From Bacteroidales bacterium (GTDB lineage: Bacteria; Bacteroidota; Bacteroidia; Bacteroidales; UBA932), in NCBI GenBank assembly GCA_024401695.1, contig JAKSKN010000013.1:1-64000 (forward strand): a DNA stretch of 64,000 bases. Reading direction: 5' to 3'. Within the stretch, counting starts at the first letter, position 1, and every line of letters starts with the position of its first letter. Positions 24,506 through 39,865 of the stretch are shown piece after piece. Under the pieces are notes generated by a model. The model was not told the DNA's origin. It worked only from the letters and a program-made list of their open reading frames with translations, and searched no databases. The position numbers and the translations under genes were made by a program.

Positions 24506-25261
24506 ATGATAAGGGAAGAAACAGTTTTCGGGCCGATAAAATCGCGCCGCCTGGGCACCTCGCTCGGCATAAACCTGCTGCCCACGAAGGGCAAGTTCTG
24601 CAATTTTGACTGCATCTACTGCGAATGCGGATGGAACAGGGACGGACGTGACGACACCAGGCTGCCTTCGGCTGCGGAAGTGCGCCGGGCTCTCGAAGAC
24701 AAACTCGCCGAACTGCTTCTGGACGGCACCCGGCTCGACTCCATCACCTTCAGCGGCGACGGCGAGGGTACCCTGAATCCGGAATTCCCACGTATAATCG
24801 ACGACACCCTCCGGCTGCGCGACGCCTATTGTCCGGAAGCAAGGATTTCCGTCCTGTCCAACGCCACCCGCGTCCATATCCCGGAAGTATTCGAGGCGTT
24901 GCAAAAGGTCGACAATCCCATTATGAAAATAGATGCTCCAAGCAATGAGCTCATCGCCAGGATCAACAAGCCGGCCCCGGGCTACGACCTCGCAAGGGTG
25001 ATTGACGGGCTTCGCCGCTTCAATGGGAATTTCATCCTTCAGACAATGTTCCTGCGCAGCTCGGACTATGATTCCTCTGAGCCGGCAGCAGTGGCAGCGT
25101 GGATGGATATCGTGCGCGACCTGCACCCGCGCGAGGTGATGGTCTACACCATAGACCGCGAGACGCCTCAGGAGGGATTGCAAAAGTTCTCCGTAGAAGA
25201 AATGAGGAATCTCGTAAAACCACTGATCGATGAAGGATTTTCCGTGCAGATAAGGGGATAA
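24506..25261 (+). CDS. Radical SAM protein (COG0731-like)
   Basis: A 251-residue radical SAM enzyme with the cluster motif CNFDCIYCECGW (C32, C36, C39) close to the N-terminus, preceded by the phrase FGPIKSRRLGTSLGINLLP that marks the COG0731 group related to wyosine-base synthesis enzymes. Later segments are ITFSGDGEGTLNPEFP, in which the GDGE binds the SAM amino group, and ISVLSNATRVHIPEV. There are no extra C-terminal cysteine clusters. The substrate in bacteria is unknown. A promoter box eight bases before the ATG suggests a leaderless message. The next gene has its own promoter. Confidence 0.85.
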   Translation: MIREETVFGPIKSRRLGTSLGINLLPTKGKFCNFDCIYCECGWNRDGRDDTRLPSAAEVRRALEDKLAELLLDGTRLDSITFSGDGEGTLNPEFPRIIDDTLRLRDAYCPEARISVLSNATRVHIPEVFEALQKVDNPIMKIDAPSNELIARINKPAPGYDLARVIDGLRRFNGNFILQTMFLRSSDYDSSEPAAVAAWMDIVRDLHPREVMVYTIDRETPQEGLQKFSVEEMRNLVKPLIDEGFSVQIRG

Positions 25262-25311: not shown

Positions 25312-28300
25312 ATGCCTGAATCATTCACTTACGATGTTCTGCGCGATTGCGGGCTTCTTGCCAAGGACAAATCGTTCAGAAATCTATACAAGCTCATCTG
25401 CGCTCACGGAGACATCCCTGCAGCCGCATGGCTTGAAAAGGACGTAGAGAAGTCTCTCACGTTCAATGAGTTGGCTCAACTCGCGGACAATTATGCCGCA
25501 CGACTCCAAGATATTTTCGGTAAAGAAGGAAGAGTCTGCATCTCTCTCGACTGCTGCAAGGAATGGTTTCCTCTTTTCTGGGGCCTCACCCGTTCCGGCC
25601 ACGACACACTGCTTCTGGACGCCTCGATGGCCGACGACAAGGCCAATGATATCCTCAGCCAGACAAAATGCATCGGTATGGTGTCCGGCAAACTCCACAA
25701 CGTCGATCCGAAAATCAAACAGATCCTTGTCACAGACCTGGCGGATTGCCCGGAAGTGACCGGATACAAGCCGGTCTGGAGCCACGACATCGCTCTTTGC
25801 ACCAGCGGCACCACATCCGACAGCAGAATCTTCATCTATGATGAGGAGACAATCTGTTACCTTGCACTCTTCTCAGCCAAGGTGCGTATGGACAACAGGA
25901 ACCTCATCGACGACTGCAATTTCAGGGGTCTCGCATTCCTTCCGTTCCATCATATCCTCGGATTCGCGGCCATCTTCATATGGTGCCACTTCCTGGGCGA
26001 CACGATGGTATACCTCAAGGACCGTTCTCCTCTGACCATCTCACGCACGGTGCAGAAATGCCGCGTGAACCAGATCGTGGCAGTCCCTCTCCTTGCCAAC
26101 AGCATCGCCAAGACGCTCAAGGCAGAGGTCAGGAAGCAAGGCATACTCGAGCGCGCAGCATTCAATGCAATGCTCGGGATAAGCCTCGGCGTCCAGAGCA
26201 TAGCCCCGAAGGCAGGTCTCAAGCTTGCAGGAAAGATGTTCAAGGGCGTGCAGAAGAAAGTCTTCGGCACCGAAATGAAGAGCATCGTGCTCGGTGGCAG
26301 CCACACCGATCCTGAAAGTCTCCGCATACTCAACGGAATCGGCTACTTCACCATCTGCGGCTACGGTATGACAGAAACCGCAATCACGGGGTTCAACTCT
26401 TCATACGTCCTCGAGAACCGTCTCACCGGCTCCATCGGCGCCCCTATGGAATTCACCGAATACCGCATCAAGCCTCTTGAAGGCGGCGCTTCCGACGGCA
26501 AGGAACGCAAAAACGCAAAGGCAGGCCGCACAGGTGAGCTTCAGATCCGAGGCAAGGGCCTTCACGACGCCCGCATAGTCAACGGCGAGGTACTTCCTCC
26601 AGACGTTGACGCAGACGGCTGGTTCAGCACCGGCGACATCATCCGCATCATCGATGCAAAGCAGGAATACTACATCGAAGGCCGCATCAAGGAGGTCATC
26701 ATCAACGAATCCGGCGAGAACGTCTACCCTGACGAGCTTGAGGACGCATTCAAGGATCTCGAAGGCATCGCACAGTACACCATCGTCGGTCTCAAGAAAA
26801 AGAACAGCCACTACGAGGACATAGCCCTCGTGATGAATGTTGCCGACAAGATTGCCGACGAAGGATTCATCCAGTCTCTCAGCCAGTCCGTCCGCATCAT
26901 AAACAAGGACCTCCCGGTATTCAAGCGCCTGAGCCGCGCAATCATCACAGGCGACTCCCTCCCTGTCGCCAACGGCTTCAAGGTCAAGAGGATCGCACTC
27001 AAGAAGATGATCGAAAACCGCGAGCTCAACCTCCGCAACCTTGACCTTTCTTCCAGGAACGGAGACGACACCGCCGCCGTTACGGCTCAGAAGGCATCCT
27101 CAAAGGCAGAAGACAAGCGCAACGAAGAGCTCAAGACAATGGTCAAGGGCATCTTCTCACAGGTTCTCAATATGCCTGCCGACAGCATCGACGACAACGC
27201 GAACTTCATCGACGACCTCGGCGGCGACAGCCTCCAGGTCCTCTCCATCATCACCAAGGCCGAAGAGACCTTCAGCGTGATGATCCCTACCGAAGCATAC
27301 GGAAGGTGCGCTTCGATCAACGGTTCCGTCGAACTGCTCAGCGAACTCATCTACGGCTCCTCCAACAGCGGCGCGGCCACGGGTGCACAGCAGCTCGTGA
27401 AGCGCCAGCCGGTCACCGACTTCGAAGCCACCCCTGAATATCAGCATTTCCTCGAACGCCGCAAGGGTCTTATGGCCGACGGCGCGAAGGACCCGTACTT
27501 TGTCGTCCACGACTCCCCTCTTCTCGACAAGAGCGTCGTCGACGGAAAGGAATATCTCGACTTCGGCAGCTACAACTATGTAGGTATGAGCGGCCGCAAG
27601 GAAGTCAATGATGCCGCAAAGGCAGCCATCGACAGATGGGGCACCTCGGCATCCGGAAGCCGCCTGCTCGCCGGCGAGAAGCCTATCCACAGGGAACTTG
27701 AGGCTGCCATCGCAAAATGGAAGAACGCCGAAGCTGCGATCGTCCTCGTAGGCGGTCACTCGACCAATGTCACCGTAGTCGGCAACTTCTGCGGCAAGAA
27801 CGACCTCATCCTGTACGATGCATTGTCCCACAACTCCATCGAGCAGGGCTGCCGTCTTTCCGAGGCCACGGCAAAGCCATTCCCTCACAATGATCTCCAG
27901 ACCCTCGAGCAGATCCTGAAGACACAGCGTCAGTACTTCGAGAAGGTCCTCATCGTCATCGAAGGCGTATACAGTATGGACGGTGACGTCTCAGACGTTC
28001 CGGGATTCGTGGCATTGAAGAAGAAATACGGCTGCTTCCTGATGGTTGACGAAGCCCACAGCTCCTGCGTGCTCGGTGCACACGGCGGCGGCGTGGACGA
28101 ATACTTCAACCTGGCCCAGGACGACATCGACCTGAAATACGGCACCCTCTCAAAGGGTCTCGGCACCTGCGGCGGCTATATCGCGGGACGCAAGTCCGTT
28201 GTGGAATACTTCAAATACAACCTTCCTGGTTTCGTGTTCAGCGTAGGCATCTCCCCTGCTCTCGCAGCAGGTTCACTCAAGGCCATCCAGCTGCTCCACG

Positions 28301-28635
28301 AGAATCCGGAGATAATGGACAACCTCCACCGCAACATCAAGTGCTTCGCCGATGAGGCCAAAAAGCGCAAGCTCGACATCTGCCTCGGCGGCAAGACGGC
28401 CATCCTCCCTGTATTGATAGGAAAAGACGAAGACGCCGTCGTACTCAGCAACGAGATGAACGCGCGCGGCATACTCGTTCCGCCTGCCGTATATCCTGCA
28501 GTGCCAAAGAACAAGGCGCGCCTGCGCTTCGACGTGATCAGCGAGCACAAGCCTGAACAGATCGTATTCGTGCTCGACACTCTCGTACAGGCTGCAAAGG
28601 ATCTGGGAATCAAGCTTCCTGAAAGGGAATACTAA
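25312..28635 (+). CDS. Three-domain fusion: acyl-AMP ligase, acyl carrier protein, alpha-oxoamine synthase
   Basis: A 1107-residue multidomain enzyme. Residues about 20-575 are an ANL-type adenylating domain: ALCTSGTTSDSRIF near 160-173, GYGMTETAITGF near 350-361, STGDIIRI, and the hinge IKEVIINESGENVYPDELE. Residues about 605-680 are an acyl carrier protein with the phosphopantetheine site DDLGGDSLQVL, S640. Residues about 705-1100 are a PLP-dependent alpha-oxoamine synthase (serine palmitoyltransferase/BioF/CqsA group): DFGSYNYVGMSG, VDEAHSSCVLGAHGGGV, and K948 in GTLSKGLGTCGGYIAG. The layout predicts that a fatty acid is activated, loaded on the built-in ACP and condensed with an amino acid, giving a long-chain amino ketone such as a sphingoid or capnine-like base; the amino acid is not known. 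Own promoter and terminator. Confidence 0.85.
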   Translation: MPESFTYDVLRDCGLLAKDKSFRNLYKLICAHGDIPAAAWLEKDVEKSLTFNELAQLADNYAARLQDIFGKEGRVCISLDCCKEWFPLFWGLTRSGHDTLLLDASMADDKANDILSQTKCIGMVSGKLHNVDPKIKQILVTDLADCPEVTGYKPVWSHDIALCTSGTTSDSRIFIYDEETICYLALFSAKVRMDNRNLIDDCNFRGLAFLPFHHILGFAAIFIWCHFLGDTMVYLKDRSPLTISRTVQKCRVNQIVAVPLLANSIAKTLKAEVRKQGILERAAFNAMLGISLGVQSIAPKAGLKLAGKMFKGVQKKVFGTEMKSIVLGGSHTDPESLRILNGIGYFTICGYGMTETAITGFNSSYVLENRLTGSIGAPMEFTEYRIKPLEGGASDGKERKNAKAGRTGELQIRGKGLHDARIVNGEVLPPDVDADGWFSTGDIIRIIDAKQEYYIEGRIKEVIINESGENVYPDELEDAFKDLEGIAQYTIVGLKKKNSHYEDIALVMNVADKIADEGFIQSLSQSVRIINKDLPVFKRLSRAIITGDSLPVANGFKVKRIALKKMIENRELNLRNLDLSSRNGDDTAAVTAQKASSKAEDKRNEELKTMVKGIFSQVLNMPADSIDDNANFIDDLGGDSLQVLSIITKAEETFSVMIPTEAYGRCASINGSVELLSELIYGSSNSGAATGAQQLVKRQPVTDFEATPEYQHFLERRKGLMADGAKDPYFVVHDSPLLDKSVVDGKEYLDFGSYNYVGMSGRKEVNDAAKAAIDRWGTSASGSRLLAGEKPIHRELEAAIAKWKNAEAAIVLVGGHSTNVTVVGNFCGKNDLILYDALSHNSIEQGCRLSEATAKPFPHNDLQTLEQILKTQRQYFEKVLIVIEGVYSMDGDVSDVPGFVALKKKYGCFLMVDEAHSSCVLGAHGGGVDEYFNLAQDDIDLKYGTLSKGLGTCGGYIAGRKSVVEYFKYNLPGFVFSVGISPALAAGSLKAIQLLHENPEIMDNLHRNIKCFADEAKKRKLDICLGGKTAILPVLIGKDEDAVVLSNEMNARGILVPPAVYPAVPKNKARLRFDVISEHKPEQIVFVLDTLVQAAKDLGIKLPEREY

Positions 28636-28692: not shown

Positions 28693-29652
28693 ATGCAGTA
28701 CATTGGTGAAATAATCTCCCTGCTGGTAGCGGTCTCCTGGACAATCACCGCCCTGGCGGCCGACGTGGCCAGCCACAGGCTCGGCGCGCTCAACCTGAAC
28801 GTCATCAGGATGGGGCTCTCCCTGGCATTGCTGGCATTGTTCCTCTGGATTTTCACCGGTGCTCCATACCCGCAGTTCGCCTCCGCCAGGACTTGGTTAT
28901 GGCTTGCCCTGTCCGGTCTGGTAGGATATCTGTTCGGCGACTGGTGCCTCTTCAATTCTTATGTAATCTTCGGCTCGAAGTACGGGCAGCTGTTCATGAC
29001 GATCTCGCCTATGATCGCCGGCCTGTCCGCCTGGCTTTTCCTCGGAGAGACACTTACCTGGAGGTCCCTGCTCGCCATGGCCGTCACCCTCGGCGGCATC
29101 GCCCTCGCCATACTCGCCCGCAGCGACGACGGCCGGCGCCTCCGCGTCCGCCTGCCTTTGAAAGGCATCCTCTTCGGCCTCGGCGCCGGTCTCGGTCAAG
29201 GCCTGGGCCTTGTACTTTCCAAAATCGGCCTCGCCGAATACTCATCCAGCTTCGCCTCTGCGGCTTCATCCGCTATTTACAACGGACTGCTGCCTTTCGA
29301 AACGGCGATGCCTTTCGCCGGCACATTCATACGGGCCACCTTCGGGCTGCTGGGCTTCATCGTGATCGTCAGCTGCAAACACCGTTTCAGCAGCGTCGCC
29401 GGCAGTCTTCACGACCGCAAGGGAATGAAGTTCGCCCTCATCACCACCTTCTTCGGCCCGTTCCTCGGCGTCTCGCTCTCCCTCGCCGCCGTCTCCCACG
29501 CCCCCGCCGGCATCGCCTCCACCCTGATGGCCCTCACCCCGATGCTCATCATCGTCCCATACGCCATCATCAACCACCAGCGCATCTCCCTCCGAGAAGT
29601 CATCGCCACCGCGATCACCCTCACCGGCGTCGCCCTCTTCTTCCTTCTATAG
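28693..29652 (+). CDS. DMT superfamily transporter (EamA family)
   Basis: A 319-residue inner membrane protein with about ten hydrophobic segments in two EamA repeats. The first repeat starts IGEIISLLVAVSWTITALAAD and includes WLALSGLVGYLFGDWCLFNSY; the second includes ILFGLGAGLGQGLGLVLSKIG and ends with a membrane helix VIATAITLTGVALFFLL. Members export amino acids, nucleotides or other small metabolites; the substrate here cannot be told. It lies just after the terminator of the fusion gene, so it may depend on read-through; a role in exporting something made by that enzyme is possible but unsupported. Two small hairpins follow the stop. Confidence 0.87.
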   Translation: MQYIGEIISLLVAVSWTITALAADVASHRLGALNLNVIRMGLSLALLALFLWIFTGAPYPQFASARTWLWLALSGLVGYLFGDWCLFNSYVIFGSKYGQLFMTISPMIAGLSAWLFLGETLTWRSLLAMAVTLGGIALAILARSDDGRRLRVRLPLKGILFGLGAGLGQGLGLVLSKIGLAEYSSSFASAASSAIYNGLLPFETAMPFAGTFIRATFGLLGFIVIVSCKHRFSSVAGSLHDRKGMKFALITTFFGPFLGVSLSLAAVSHAPAGIASTLMALTPMLIIVPYAIINHQRISLREVIATAITLTGVALFFLL

Positions 29653-35272: not shown

Positions 35273-36007
35273 ATGACGTCCAAGACCATTCAGAAGCTGG
35301 ACCTTCCGTGCTATATGTTCGACTGCCGTGAATGTCTCCGGCCATCGTCCTTTATGGACATCGCCCAGGAACTCGCGGCAGCCGGCAGTGCGGACGGTGG
35401 ATTCTCTGACCAGGACATCGCGAAACACGGGCTGGTCTGGATACTCGCAAGGATGAAGGTGGTATTCAACAAAGTACCTCACCGTTGCGACAGCGTTACC
35501 GCAGAGACCTGGCACAGAGGGCTCTCGGGACCATATTTCATCAGGGACTACCGTCTGCTCGACACAGACGGGGGTGTTGCCGTATCCTCAACCAGCACCT
35601 GGGTCATAATGGACACGGCAAGCCGCAGGGCCGTACGCGGCGACCATATCACCGACATAATCCCCTCTTCGCCCCAGTGCGACGAGGAGGCTGCCGGCGA
35701 TCCGGCGGACAAGATCATTTTCCCGAAAAACGCTGCCGGCACCATAGTGGCAGAGCACAAGGTGGTATATTCCGACCTTGACTACAACGGCCACGCCAAC
35801 AACGCCAAATACACCCTCTGGGCACTGGACGTCCTTCCTCCGGAGCTGACCACAAACAACACCCCGAAGGAAATCACGGTCAACTTCAACAACGAGGCCA
35901 GGCTGGGTGAGGTCGTGACACTGCTTCACTGCCAGCACGCCAACGTCCATATTGTCGAAGGCCGGTCAAACGGTCTCCAGGTCTTCATCGAAAAAATCAT
36001 TTACTGA
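35273..36007 (+). CDS. Acyl-ACP thioesterase
   Basis: A 244-residue double-hotdog thioesterase of the FatA/FatB-like bacterial group, which frees fatty acids from acyl carrier protein. The first hotdog holds RPSSFMDIAQELAAAG with the long central helix and HGLVWILARMKVVF; the second holds the active-site stretch YSDLDYNGHANNAKYTLW, with Asn and His of the catalytic set. Family members are common single genes in Bacteroidetes. Free fatty acid produced here could in principle feed the acyl-AMP ligase at 25312-28635, but the genes are 7 kb apart and no link is shown. The GH3 gene begins four bases after the stop. Confidence 0.88.
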   Translation: MTSKTIQKLDLPCYMFDCRECLRPSSFMDIAQELAAAGSADGGFSDQDIAKHGLVWILARMKVVFNKVPHRCDSVTAETWHRGLSGPYFIRDYRLLDTDGGVAVSSTSTWVIMDTASRRAVRGDHITDIIPSSPQCDEEAAGDPADKIIFPKNAAGTIVAEHKVVYSDLDYNGHANNAKYTLWALDVLPPELTTNNTPKEITVNFNNEARLGEVVTLLHCQHANVHIVEGRSNGLQVFIEKIIY

Positions 36008-38698: not shown

Positions 38699-39865
38699 CT
38701 ACAGATTGAAATGCAGTCTGGTTTCGTAGTCTTTGTCCACGCAGACGGTTGCAGTATTTTTCGTGAGATTGTAGACCACTGACCATTGGGTATTGCTCGT
38801 GATTTCCTCAGGGTTGAGAAGCTGATGGACATCCTGCAGCAGCTGCATCGCTTCGTCTTCGGTGAGGATACGTTGTTTTTCCTGAAGTCTGTTGTGAATG
38901 ATGTCATAGCGGTTCTGGCCAACGCCGAGATTCTGCCAGCCTTCTGTCAGGTAGAAGTTGGTAACATGGTCTTCATCGAGTACATTGAGAGTCCAGTCCT
39001 TGGCTTTCGCGTCCTCGACCGGAGCTTCTTCTCCAGGACGGAAGTACTCGATCACGACTGATTTGCCGCTGGCATCTGCAAGCAGGAAATGGTAATTGTT
39101 CGGAGAATCCTCGCCGTCGGCGAAGAAATTGTGGTTTCTGAACATCTCCACCGCCTCATCAACGTTCGCACATTCGTCCAGGGCGATGCGGATGGCGAGG
39201 GACGGAACGATGTCGGACTTGTTGGAATCGTGCTGAACAGCACCGCCGCCCCGCAGCGAAAGAACTCCGATGAACAGGCCGGCATCATTCATTCCGTCAA
39301 GGCAACAGTAAACGGAAGCTGCAGTAGGGACAGAAATATCGGTCGTGCCGTCGGAGAGCGAACCTGCGACAAAAGTCTTTTCGTCTAGATAAGGCATCGC
39401 TGAGATGCACATCGACTCATACGCACCCGGGAAGATGTTGTGGACAGCTACGTTAGCTGAGGATACGAATCGATAGTCGAAGTTTCTGCCGACTATGACA
39501 TCCCCATCCGGAGACTTTACGCAAAAAGCGCTGCAACCATAGTCCATCTTGGAGTCCGATGCGCTCACTGGAAGATTAAGCAGGTTCTGAAAGACTTTCA
39601 TGATCAGGTCTTCGCTCGATTTGGCGCCACCTTGGTCCATTATTTCATTCAGTTTGTAGTCTGCGGTATTTTCCATCGTGTAAAGATGACCTTCTTTGAT
39701 GTCTCTGAGGGTAGCGGCTGTCGCTTTCTGAGCGTCAGTTTGGAGAATGGTGGCGGGATTGTCGGAAGGGACTCCTTCAATTTCCGAGAATCTGTGGCTG
39801 TTGCAGGATTGTATCGTTGTAAGAGCAGCCAGCACTATAAACAGGAAACCTTTATTCTTCATCAT
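38699..39865 (-). CDS. Linear amide C-N hydrolase (choloylglycine hydrolase-like Ntn hydrolase) lipoprotein
   Basis: An exported N-terminal-nucleophile-type hydrolase related to bile salt hydrolases, penicillin V acylases and acid-ceramidase-like amidases. Signal MMKNKGFLFIVLAALTTIQSC has lipobox IQSC (C21). The catalytic segment is YGCSAFCVKSPDGDVIVGRN, with C111 as the likely nucleophile, followed by FDYRF, and later NDAGLFIGVLSLRGG and the conserved NYHFLLADASG. About 90 residues lie between the lipid anchor and the nucleophile, so maturation at C111 or a non-processed form are both possible. Substrate unknown: a bile acid conjugate, N-acyl amino acid or lipid amide. Two start codons are adjacent (39865 and 39862). 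Confidence 0.82.
   Translation of the reverse strand: MMKNKGFLFIVLAALTTIQSCNSHRFSEIEGVPSDNPATILQTDAQKATAATLRDIKEGHLYTMENTADYKLNEIMDQGGAKSSEDLIMKVFQNLLNLPVSASDSKMDYGCSAFCVKSPDGDVIVGRNFDYRFVSSANVAVHNIFPGAYESMCISAMPYLDEKTFVAGSLSDGTTDISVPTAASVYCCLDGMNDAGLFIGVLSLRGGGAVQHDSNKSDIVPSLAIRIALDECANVDEAVEMFRNHNFFADGEDSPNNYHFLLADASGKSVVIEYFRPGEEAPVEDAKAKDWTLNVLDEDHVTNFYLTEGWQNLGVGQNRYDIIHNRLQEKQRILTEDEAMQLLQDVHQLLNPEEITSNTQWSVVYNLTKNTATVCVDKDYETRLHFNL

Follow-up and report, generated by a model that had tools for sequence, protein, structure and literature searches.

In the AasR–AcpR–SPT system, known from Rhodobacteria and with Caulobacter and E. coli BL21 as examples, an acyl–acyl carrier protein (ACP) synthetase is described as loading the ACP that serves serine palmitoyltransferase (SPT) (PMC9386255). 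PfSgaB, the α-oxoamine synthase (OAS) that works with a polyketide synthase (PKS) in the PfSgaAB pair, is reported to be an SPT that uses serine virtually to the exclusion of alanine and glycine, and to accept acyl-CoA in vitro (PMC12134224). SulA is described as distinguished from SPT by Lys281 and as using free acyl-ACP as its substrate (PMC9304779). Here we analyze a gene in which an acyl ligase, an ACP and an OAS are fused, located in a 64,000-nucleotide stretch of contig JAKSKN010000013.1 of a Bacteroidales bacterium (GCA_024401695.1), hereafter the window. We consider it fairly probable that the fused protein is a single-chain, self-loading equivalent of SPT that makes a serine-derived sphingoid base and replaces SPT.

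The fused protein and its conservation

The gene is a 1107-aa open reading frame (ORF) that runs uninterrupted from ATG to stop and contains three Pfam domains (Table 1), which confirms the architecture of AMP-forming ligase, ACP and OAS in one chain given by an initial annotation of the window. On the reverse strand under the gene the translated frame is interrupted by stops, and the longest ORF is at most 243 aa. Across the nine fused sequences available, our own included, S640, K948, H840, D913, H916 and R1072 are the same residue in 9/9, and the GGDSL of the carrier domain is likewise invariant (9/9). The OAS active-site residues K948, H840, D913 and H916 and the carboxylate-binding R1072 align with those of SPT references. 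For the ligase motifs we use the labels A3 to A10. The A5, A7, A8 and A10 residues checked are invariant in 9/9 sequences, and the SGTT of A3 in all eight sequences that cover it, that of G203 being partial. The basic residue closing A3 varies among orthologues (R/K/N). The earlier statement that all active sites are intact therefore stands for S640, K948 and the conserved catalytic residues, and was slightly too strong at the last position of A3. Self-loading, meaning that one chain activates, carries and condenses the acyl group, agrees with the architecture and the active sites as far as can be read from sequence.

In the reaction that we propose, the ANL domain would adenylate a long-chain fatty acid with ATP and the acyl group would then be transferred to the phosphopantetheine that S640 of the fused ACP carries. 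The pyridoxal phosphate (PLP) domain would form the external aldimine of L-serine at K948, and condensation with the acyl-ACP would release CO2 and 3-keto-sphinganine, a course suggested by PfSgaB, which is PKS-linked and specific for serine. A KdsR-like short-chain dehydrogenase/reductase (SDR) encoded elsewhere in the genome (contig C23) would reduce 3-keto-sphinganine to sphinganine.

Profile searches for the fusion covered draws of genomes at the levels of genus, order and phylum, plus plasmid records. The fusion was found in 5/250 and then in 9/400 genomes of the same genus, the window's own included, and is full-length apart from one copy cut by a contig end. The wider order and phylum draws each returned only the window's own genome (1/393 at E ≤ 1e-75 and 1/395 at E ≤ 1e-80, respectively), and 0 of 72,556 plasmid records cover 80% of the fused-protein query at one place. 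A GTDB pattern scan, which reaches close relatives only, recovered a single 94% identical relative, the Bacteroidia metagenome-assembled genome (MAG) L033; this is probably the same MAG as G1060, both being 5749-base contigs, and the two were counted once. Identity among the nine fused sequences falls to 57–59%, with the ligase domain more variable than the OAS domain. The dN/dS values relative to the window gene, from unsaturated pairs, are 0.07–0.24 for the ligase, 0.11–0.24 for the ACP and 0.02–0.17 for the OAS. The fused gene is real, maintained and under purifying selection, and the fusion is a rare protein of some Bacteroidia bacteria. Recent transfer was rejected on composition, as the GC content of the gene (0.557) and its GC3 (0.722) fall inside the range of four neighbours.

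The best PDB matches of the ligase domain are weak and include FadD13 and 4-chlorobenzoate CoA ligase. No fatty acyl-AMP ligase (FAAL) is named among 50 PDB matches of this domain, whereas an AasR query finds several, and the match to AasR itself spans 47 aa only; an identity as a FAAL-type ligase is not supported on these grounds. Because the ligase is not FAAL-like by sequence, the parts of the fusion would differ in origin. As to where the ligase came from, the 15 plasmid rows listed of 735 are at 22–26% identity, and two contexts inspected, one of them unannotated, were uninformative.

Affinity of the oxoamine synthase domain

The OAS domain was placed in a maximum-likelihood tree of 37 rows that includes BioF and KBL, with PfSgaB outside the tree. 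The nine fused OAS domains are monophyletic (100/100), and their clade joins, again at 100/100, six OAS that are fused or adjacent to a type I PKS, from Planktothrix, Streptomyces, Paraburkholderia, Pseudomonas, Shinella and Caballeronia. Dropping the long E. coli BioF branch leaves this grouping unchanged. Among themselves the PKS-linked rows form a clade of modest support, 86/81, or 76/55 without BioF. Grouping of the fused OAS with CFB SPT was rejected (approximately unbiased (AU) test, p 1.7e-4), as was grouping with all SPT rows (AU p 2.4e-5) and with SulA (p 7.1e-5). The BioF and KBL readings are also disfavoured by this tree. 

Residue patterns show the same affinity. S779, C953 and G979 of the fused protein are common only to the PKS-linked rows (5/5) among the 13 reference rows listed, and N841 is present in 4/5 PKS-linked rows of that list. 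R1070 is common to the five PKS-linked rows, KBL and BioF and is found in neither SPT nor SulA. The column of the SulA marker Lys281 holds Val (V978) in 9/9 fused proteins; among the reference rows listed it holds Val in four and Ala in one of the PKS-linked OAS, Ala in 4/4 SPT and Lys in 2/2 SulA. Of seven proteins compared, the Pseudomonas PKS gives the best match to the ACP domain, in its own ACP end (27% over 85 aa).

The OAS domain is 43–48% identical to three of the six PKS-linked OAS compared and 32% identical to Spt of E. coli BL21. PfSgaB is connected to the PKS-linked OAS of the tree by the gene arrangement in the Pseudomonas plasmid, where a PKS gene is followed by an OAS gene. The initial annotation had reasoned that its proposal of an unknown amino-lipid would be refuted if the synthase domain clustered tightly with a known enzyme whose product is known. 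This is the case only by half, identity to the PKS-linked OAS compared being at the level just given and PfSgaB itself lying outside the tree. A separate observation concerns three PKS and OAS pairs on proteobacterial plasmids (L045, L046 and L047), which adjoin capsule or polysaccharide export genes and hint at a sphingoid-type lipid anchor of the capsule.

A separate SulA-type gene (L036) is present in the window's genome. It scores 560 bits to PDB 7u7h, 539 bits to 28eh and 220 bits to SPT, and has Lys at the marker position; 28eh is named cysteate-C-fatty acyltransferase, and 7u7h was taken as SulA from its Lys marker. Together with its neighbouring SDR match on contig C2 it is likely to form the start of a sulfonolipid route, that is, condensation and ketoreductase. 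The fused protein was itself rejected as a SulA or capnine synthase, given the Val at the position of Lys281, the rejection in the tree and the separate SulA-type gene. The third match to the SPT model in the window's genome is a glycine C-acetyltransferase.

SPT, a candidate reductase and kinship of the carriers

Matches to the CFB SPT model NF047600 at E ≤ 1e-130, termed SPT-class here, occur in 120/250 genomes of the genus, 53 of which pass the curated cut-off. None of the five carriers of the fusion in this 250-genome set is among the 120. Across all carriers the count is 0/9, with a top direct match of 324 bits versus 533–672 bits in the 120. A search for a separate SPT, which the initial annotation had advised, accordingly found no SPT-class match in the window's genome, and the SulA-type gene instead. 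In Fisher tests that ignore kinship, SPT in 0/5 carriers compared with 120/245 other genomes gives p 0.037; with four more carriers from the larger draw the count is 0/9 and p 0.003. It appears that, in part of the genus, the fused gene takes the place of canonical SPT.

In three SPT-bearing genomes (G023, G129 and G027) the SPT stop and the start of a 264-aa SDR overlap. Among NCBIfam models this SDR matches 3-ketodihydrosphingosine reductase best, with 320 bits in G023 and 292 bits for the SDR of the window's genome. An activity of 3-ketosphinganine reductase has been published for Bacteroides BT_0972 (PMC9278070). Other SPT neighbours (Glu/Gln-tRNA synthetase and glucanotransferase) were considered as partners and look incidental. 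The KdsR-like SDR is present in 9/9 carriers at 66–77% identity, as intact ORFs with YSASK and with dN/dS of 0.06–0.09 where measurable. The genes beside it in carriers (HI0933-like, AraC, LytTR, MFS and others) are not sphingolipid genes, and an SDR tree of 11 rows added nothing.

The distribution of the SDR (E ≤ 1e-70) was scored in 180 genomes of the genus, taken as G000–G036 plus G061–G203, a set that fits this size and contains all 60 positives. It is present in 4/4 carriers, in 46/51 genomes of a lower-scoring SPT class, in 3/37 of a higher-scoring SPT class and in 7/88 genomes with neither an SPT-class gene nor the fusion. Fisher tests, again with kinship ignored, give p 1e-4 for 4/4 carriers versus 7/88 and p 8e-9 for 9/9 when five separately tested carriers are added. 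The lower-scoring class was counted as SPT because three of its members (G011, G031 and G027) fall within the CFB SPT clade of the OAS tree.

Some observations from this survey stand apart. The genus has two SPT score classes, of which the lower nearly always occurs with the SDR (46/51) and the higher rarely (3/37). The seven genomes with the SDR and neither enzyme (G030, G066, G109, G114, G131, G136 and G186) may have another OAS, an incomplete assembly or another use of the SDR. In G027 the SPT-class domain forms the C-terminal end of an 852-aa ORF (L044:6623-9181, minus strand), in which Pfam gives no match over the first ~456 aa; this may be another type of SPT fusion within the genus, or else an unusual extension.

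To place the carriers we used a tree of rpoB, which was recovered from 25 of 30 genomes hand-picked by label, including 6/9 carriers. No rpoB match was found in carriers G203, G1072 and G1049 or in G089 and G100, and G108 fills 31% of the columns. Given this sampling, the tree informs on how the carriers group and not on frequencies, and it does not distinguish gain from loss. A single clade of carriers was rejected (AU p 7e-5). A group of 11 genomes (97/96) comprises six carriers, four genomes with SPT and one with the SDR only, and within the tree the window's genome and G1060 join two SPT genomes at 100/99. The group of 11 includes both enzymes, the fusion in some genomes and SPT in others.

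A serine-derived sphingoid base is the product to which these results point, among the sphingoid, capnine-like and signalling compounds first suggested. The narrowing follows from the grouping with PKS-linked OAS, Val978, the separate SulA-type gene, the absence of an SPT-class gene and the presence of the KdsR-like SDR; V978 and the SulA-type gene argue against the capnine-like option. As a tentative evolutionary scenario, to which we give somewhat less than an even chance, SPT was swapped more than once in the genus for a PKS-type OAS whose PKS gave way to a ligase and a carrier. If so, free fatty acids would be committed straight to sphingoid bases, bypassing the shared acyl-ACP pool.

Alternative readings, genomic surroundings and known systems

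Several results weigh against the fused protein being an SPT equivalent. Its OAS domain misses the cut-off of every SPT model (293/640 for NF047600, 262/500 for NF047599 and 231/670 for NF047603), and its best NCBIfam score is to BioF, 344 versus a cut-off of 426. SPT-class enzymes of relatives likewise score 372–388 on BioF, and the other OAS models also remain under their cut-offs (KBL 298/460 and 245/493, ALAS 220/339, CqsA 151/428). By themselves the model scores are indecisive, as the SPT cut-offs are missed like the rest; the ALAS and CqsA readings are disfavoured by low scores only. The match of the ligase to AasR is only local, and fatty acid and serine are putative substrates. No ceramide-synthase step turned up, no search aimed at one having been made. 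The absence of SPT is less certain given that 7/9 carriers are <90% complete; the two best (97% and 96%) are without SPT too. The SPT class found in an operon with the SDR is itself under the curated cut-off (601–633 of 640 when complete), and the SDR misses the KdsR cut-off (292 and 320 versus 400). The SDR is also unlinked to the fused gene and present in 7/88 genomes with neither enzyme. All 11 genomes of the rpoB group have the SDR, which may reflect inheritance and not partnership; the SPT genomes in that tree had been chosen among those positive for the SDR.

A different kind of aminoketone maker, whose product from a short, branched or aromatic acid and an amino acid would be a signal or a specialised metabolite and no membrane sphingoid, strikes us as unlikely, though it is the strongest of the rivals. 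It would suit the divergent ligase, whose best structure matches include aryl-CoA ligases, the PKS neighbourhoods and, in three loci, capsule neighbourhoods of PKS-linked OAS, and the patchy occurrence of the gene (9/400). However, no biosynthetic partner recurs beside the fused gene where flanks are visible, the carriers lack an SPT-class gene yet have the KdsR-like SDR, and carriers and SPT genomes are intermixed in the rpoB tree. It is improbable that the OAS makes the sphingoid base from the acyl-ACP or acyl-CoA of the cell while the ligase and ACP are otherwise used or regulatory. SulA does take free acyl-ACP, PfSgaB accepts acyl-CoA in vitro, and the ligase has diverged further than the OAS domain, but the catalytic residues of ligase and ACP are kept in the orthologues that cover them, both domains are under purifying selection and the fusion persists down to 57–59% identity.

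We see hardly any room for a second sulfonolipid synthase that makes capnine with cysteate. The chemistry of OAS enzymes is alike, and with a SulA-type gene present the pathway is probably there; against this stand the Val in place of SulA Lys281 in 9/9 fused proteins, the separate SulA-type gene itself and the rejected grouping with SulA (p 7e-5). A sphingoid-forming, SPT-like role remains the reading we prefer.

The genes directly adjoining the fused gene, a radical SAM protein upstream and an EamA-family transporter downstream (Table 1), do so only in the 94% identical relative. At E 1e-20 and 35% identity, the five other orthologue loci with a visible upstream side gave no match to the radical SAM protein, and the EamA transporter had none in the five other orthologue loci with a visible downstream side. 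The two were rejected as operon partners, as they recur only in that relative. Contig ends hide the upstream side in G203 and G1112 and the downstream side in G108 and G1049. In G183 and G203 recG directly follows the fused gene, and the remaining visible flanks differ.

Nineteen neighbouring ORFs (8857–39865) were scanned. They include phosphoenolpyruvate carboxykinase (PEPCK), the radical SAM and EamA proteins, a cytidine-type deaminase, RecG, LemA, an S9 peptidase, an acyl-ACP thioesterase and a GH3 enzyme. The earlier observation that no ketoreductase or sulfonolipid gene adjoins the fused gene holds across all 19; elsewhere in the window's genome there are the SulA-type gene (contig C2) and the KdsR-like SDR (contig C23). 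No PKS domains of a type I PKS were found in the fused protein or in the 19 neighbouring ORFs. Two further genes may be mentioned. The acyl-ACP thioesterase (window 35273–36007, plus strand), 6.6 kb downstream, could provide the ligase domain with free fatty acid, and an ORF at window 38699–39865 (minus strand) has matches to AAT and to the choloylglycine hydrolase family (linear amide C-N hydrolase).

Table 1 Features of the fused gene, its flanks and related genes elsewhere in the window's genome (G000); positions are those of the window unless a contig is named
Feature	Position	Strand	Basis
Radical SAM protein, upstream, 50-nt gap	24506..25261	+	
Acyl-ligase–ACP–α-oxoamine synthase, whole gene (P0001)	25312..28635	+	ORF + Pfam
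AMP-forming ligase (ANL) domain, ~aa 1-590, Pfam core 33-417	25312..27081	+	PF00501 E 2.8e-27
Carrier (ACP) domain, aa 611-671	27142..27324	+	PF00550 E 4.3e-11
Phosphopantetheine serine S640, within LGGDSL	27229-27231	+	
α-Oxoamine synthase (OAS) domain, ~aa 700-1107, Pfam core 747-1084	27409..28632	+	Aminotran_1_2 E 6.9e-43
PLP lysine K948, within GTLSKG	28153-28155	+	
V978, position that is Lys in SulA and Ala in SPT	28243-28245	+	
EamA-family transporter, downstream, 57-nt gap	28693..29652	+	
KdsR-like SDR of the window's genome	G000:C23:28175-28963		best NCBIfam match
SulA-type gene with SDR match within ~60 bases, same strand	G000 contig C2, 76792-77526 and 77588-78724	-	

If the fusion does the job of SPT, genomes that are classed as non-producers because they have no SPT would count as producers. 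The fused protein would also offer a compact system in which to test carrier-channelled synthesis of sphingoids, and it would connect the sphingolipid route that starts from a PKS (SgaAB) with a simpler one that starts from free fatty acids. No ligase–ACP–OAS fusion was found among the titles and abstract openings listed from the open-access literature, subscription papers and preprints being largely outside that search.

The Bacteroidota SPT (NF047600; PDB 3a2b) has the same OAS fold, PLP residues and probable reaction as the fused protein, but is as a rule a single domain and belongs to a separate clade (p ≤ 2e-4), and its cut-off is unmet by the fused protein. SulA/CFAT is likewise an OAS that uses acyl-ACP, and the window's genome has a gene of that type; the fused protein differs in being without the Lys281 marker and in its clade. 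We take RkpA–RkpG to be a system of the same kind as PfSgaAB. PfSgaAB shares with the fused protein an OAS of the PKS-linked clade, for which a serine product is reported in the case of PfSgaB (PMC12134224), but its acyl chain comes from an iterative PKS, where the fused protein has a ligase and a carrier instead.

BioWF, a pimeloyl-CoA synthetase–AONS fusion, also joins an acid-activating domain to an OAS, with both described as active. It differs in having two domains and a CoA carrier, with pimelate and alanine as natural substrates and BioF as its OAS part, and the passages that describe it include no ACP domain (PMC9544090). AasR–AcpR–SPT follows the same three-step logic that we propose here and with which the domain order of the fused protein agrees: a dedicated ligase loads a dedicated ACP that SPT then uses with serine. 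There, however, the three activities reside in three separate proteins, AasR of E. coli BL21 is of FAAL type and the SPT does not belong to the clade that contains the OAS of the fused protein.

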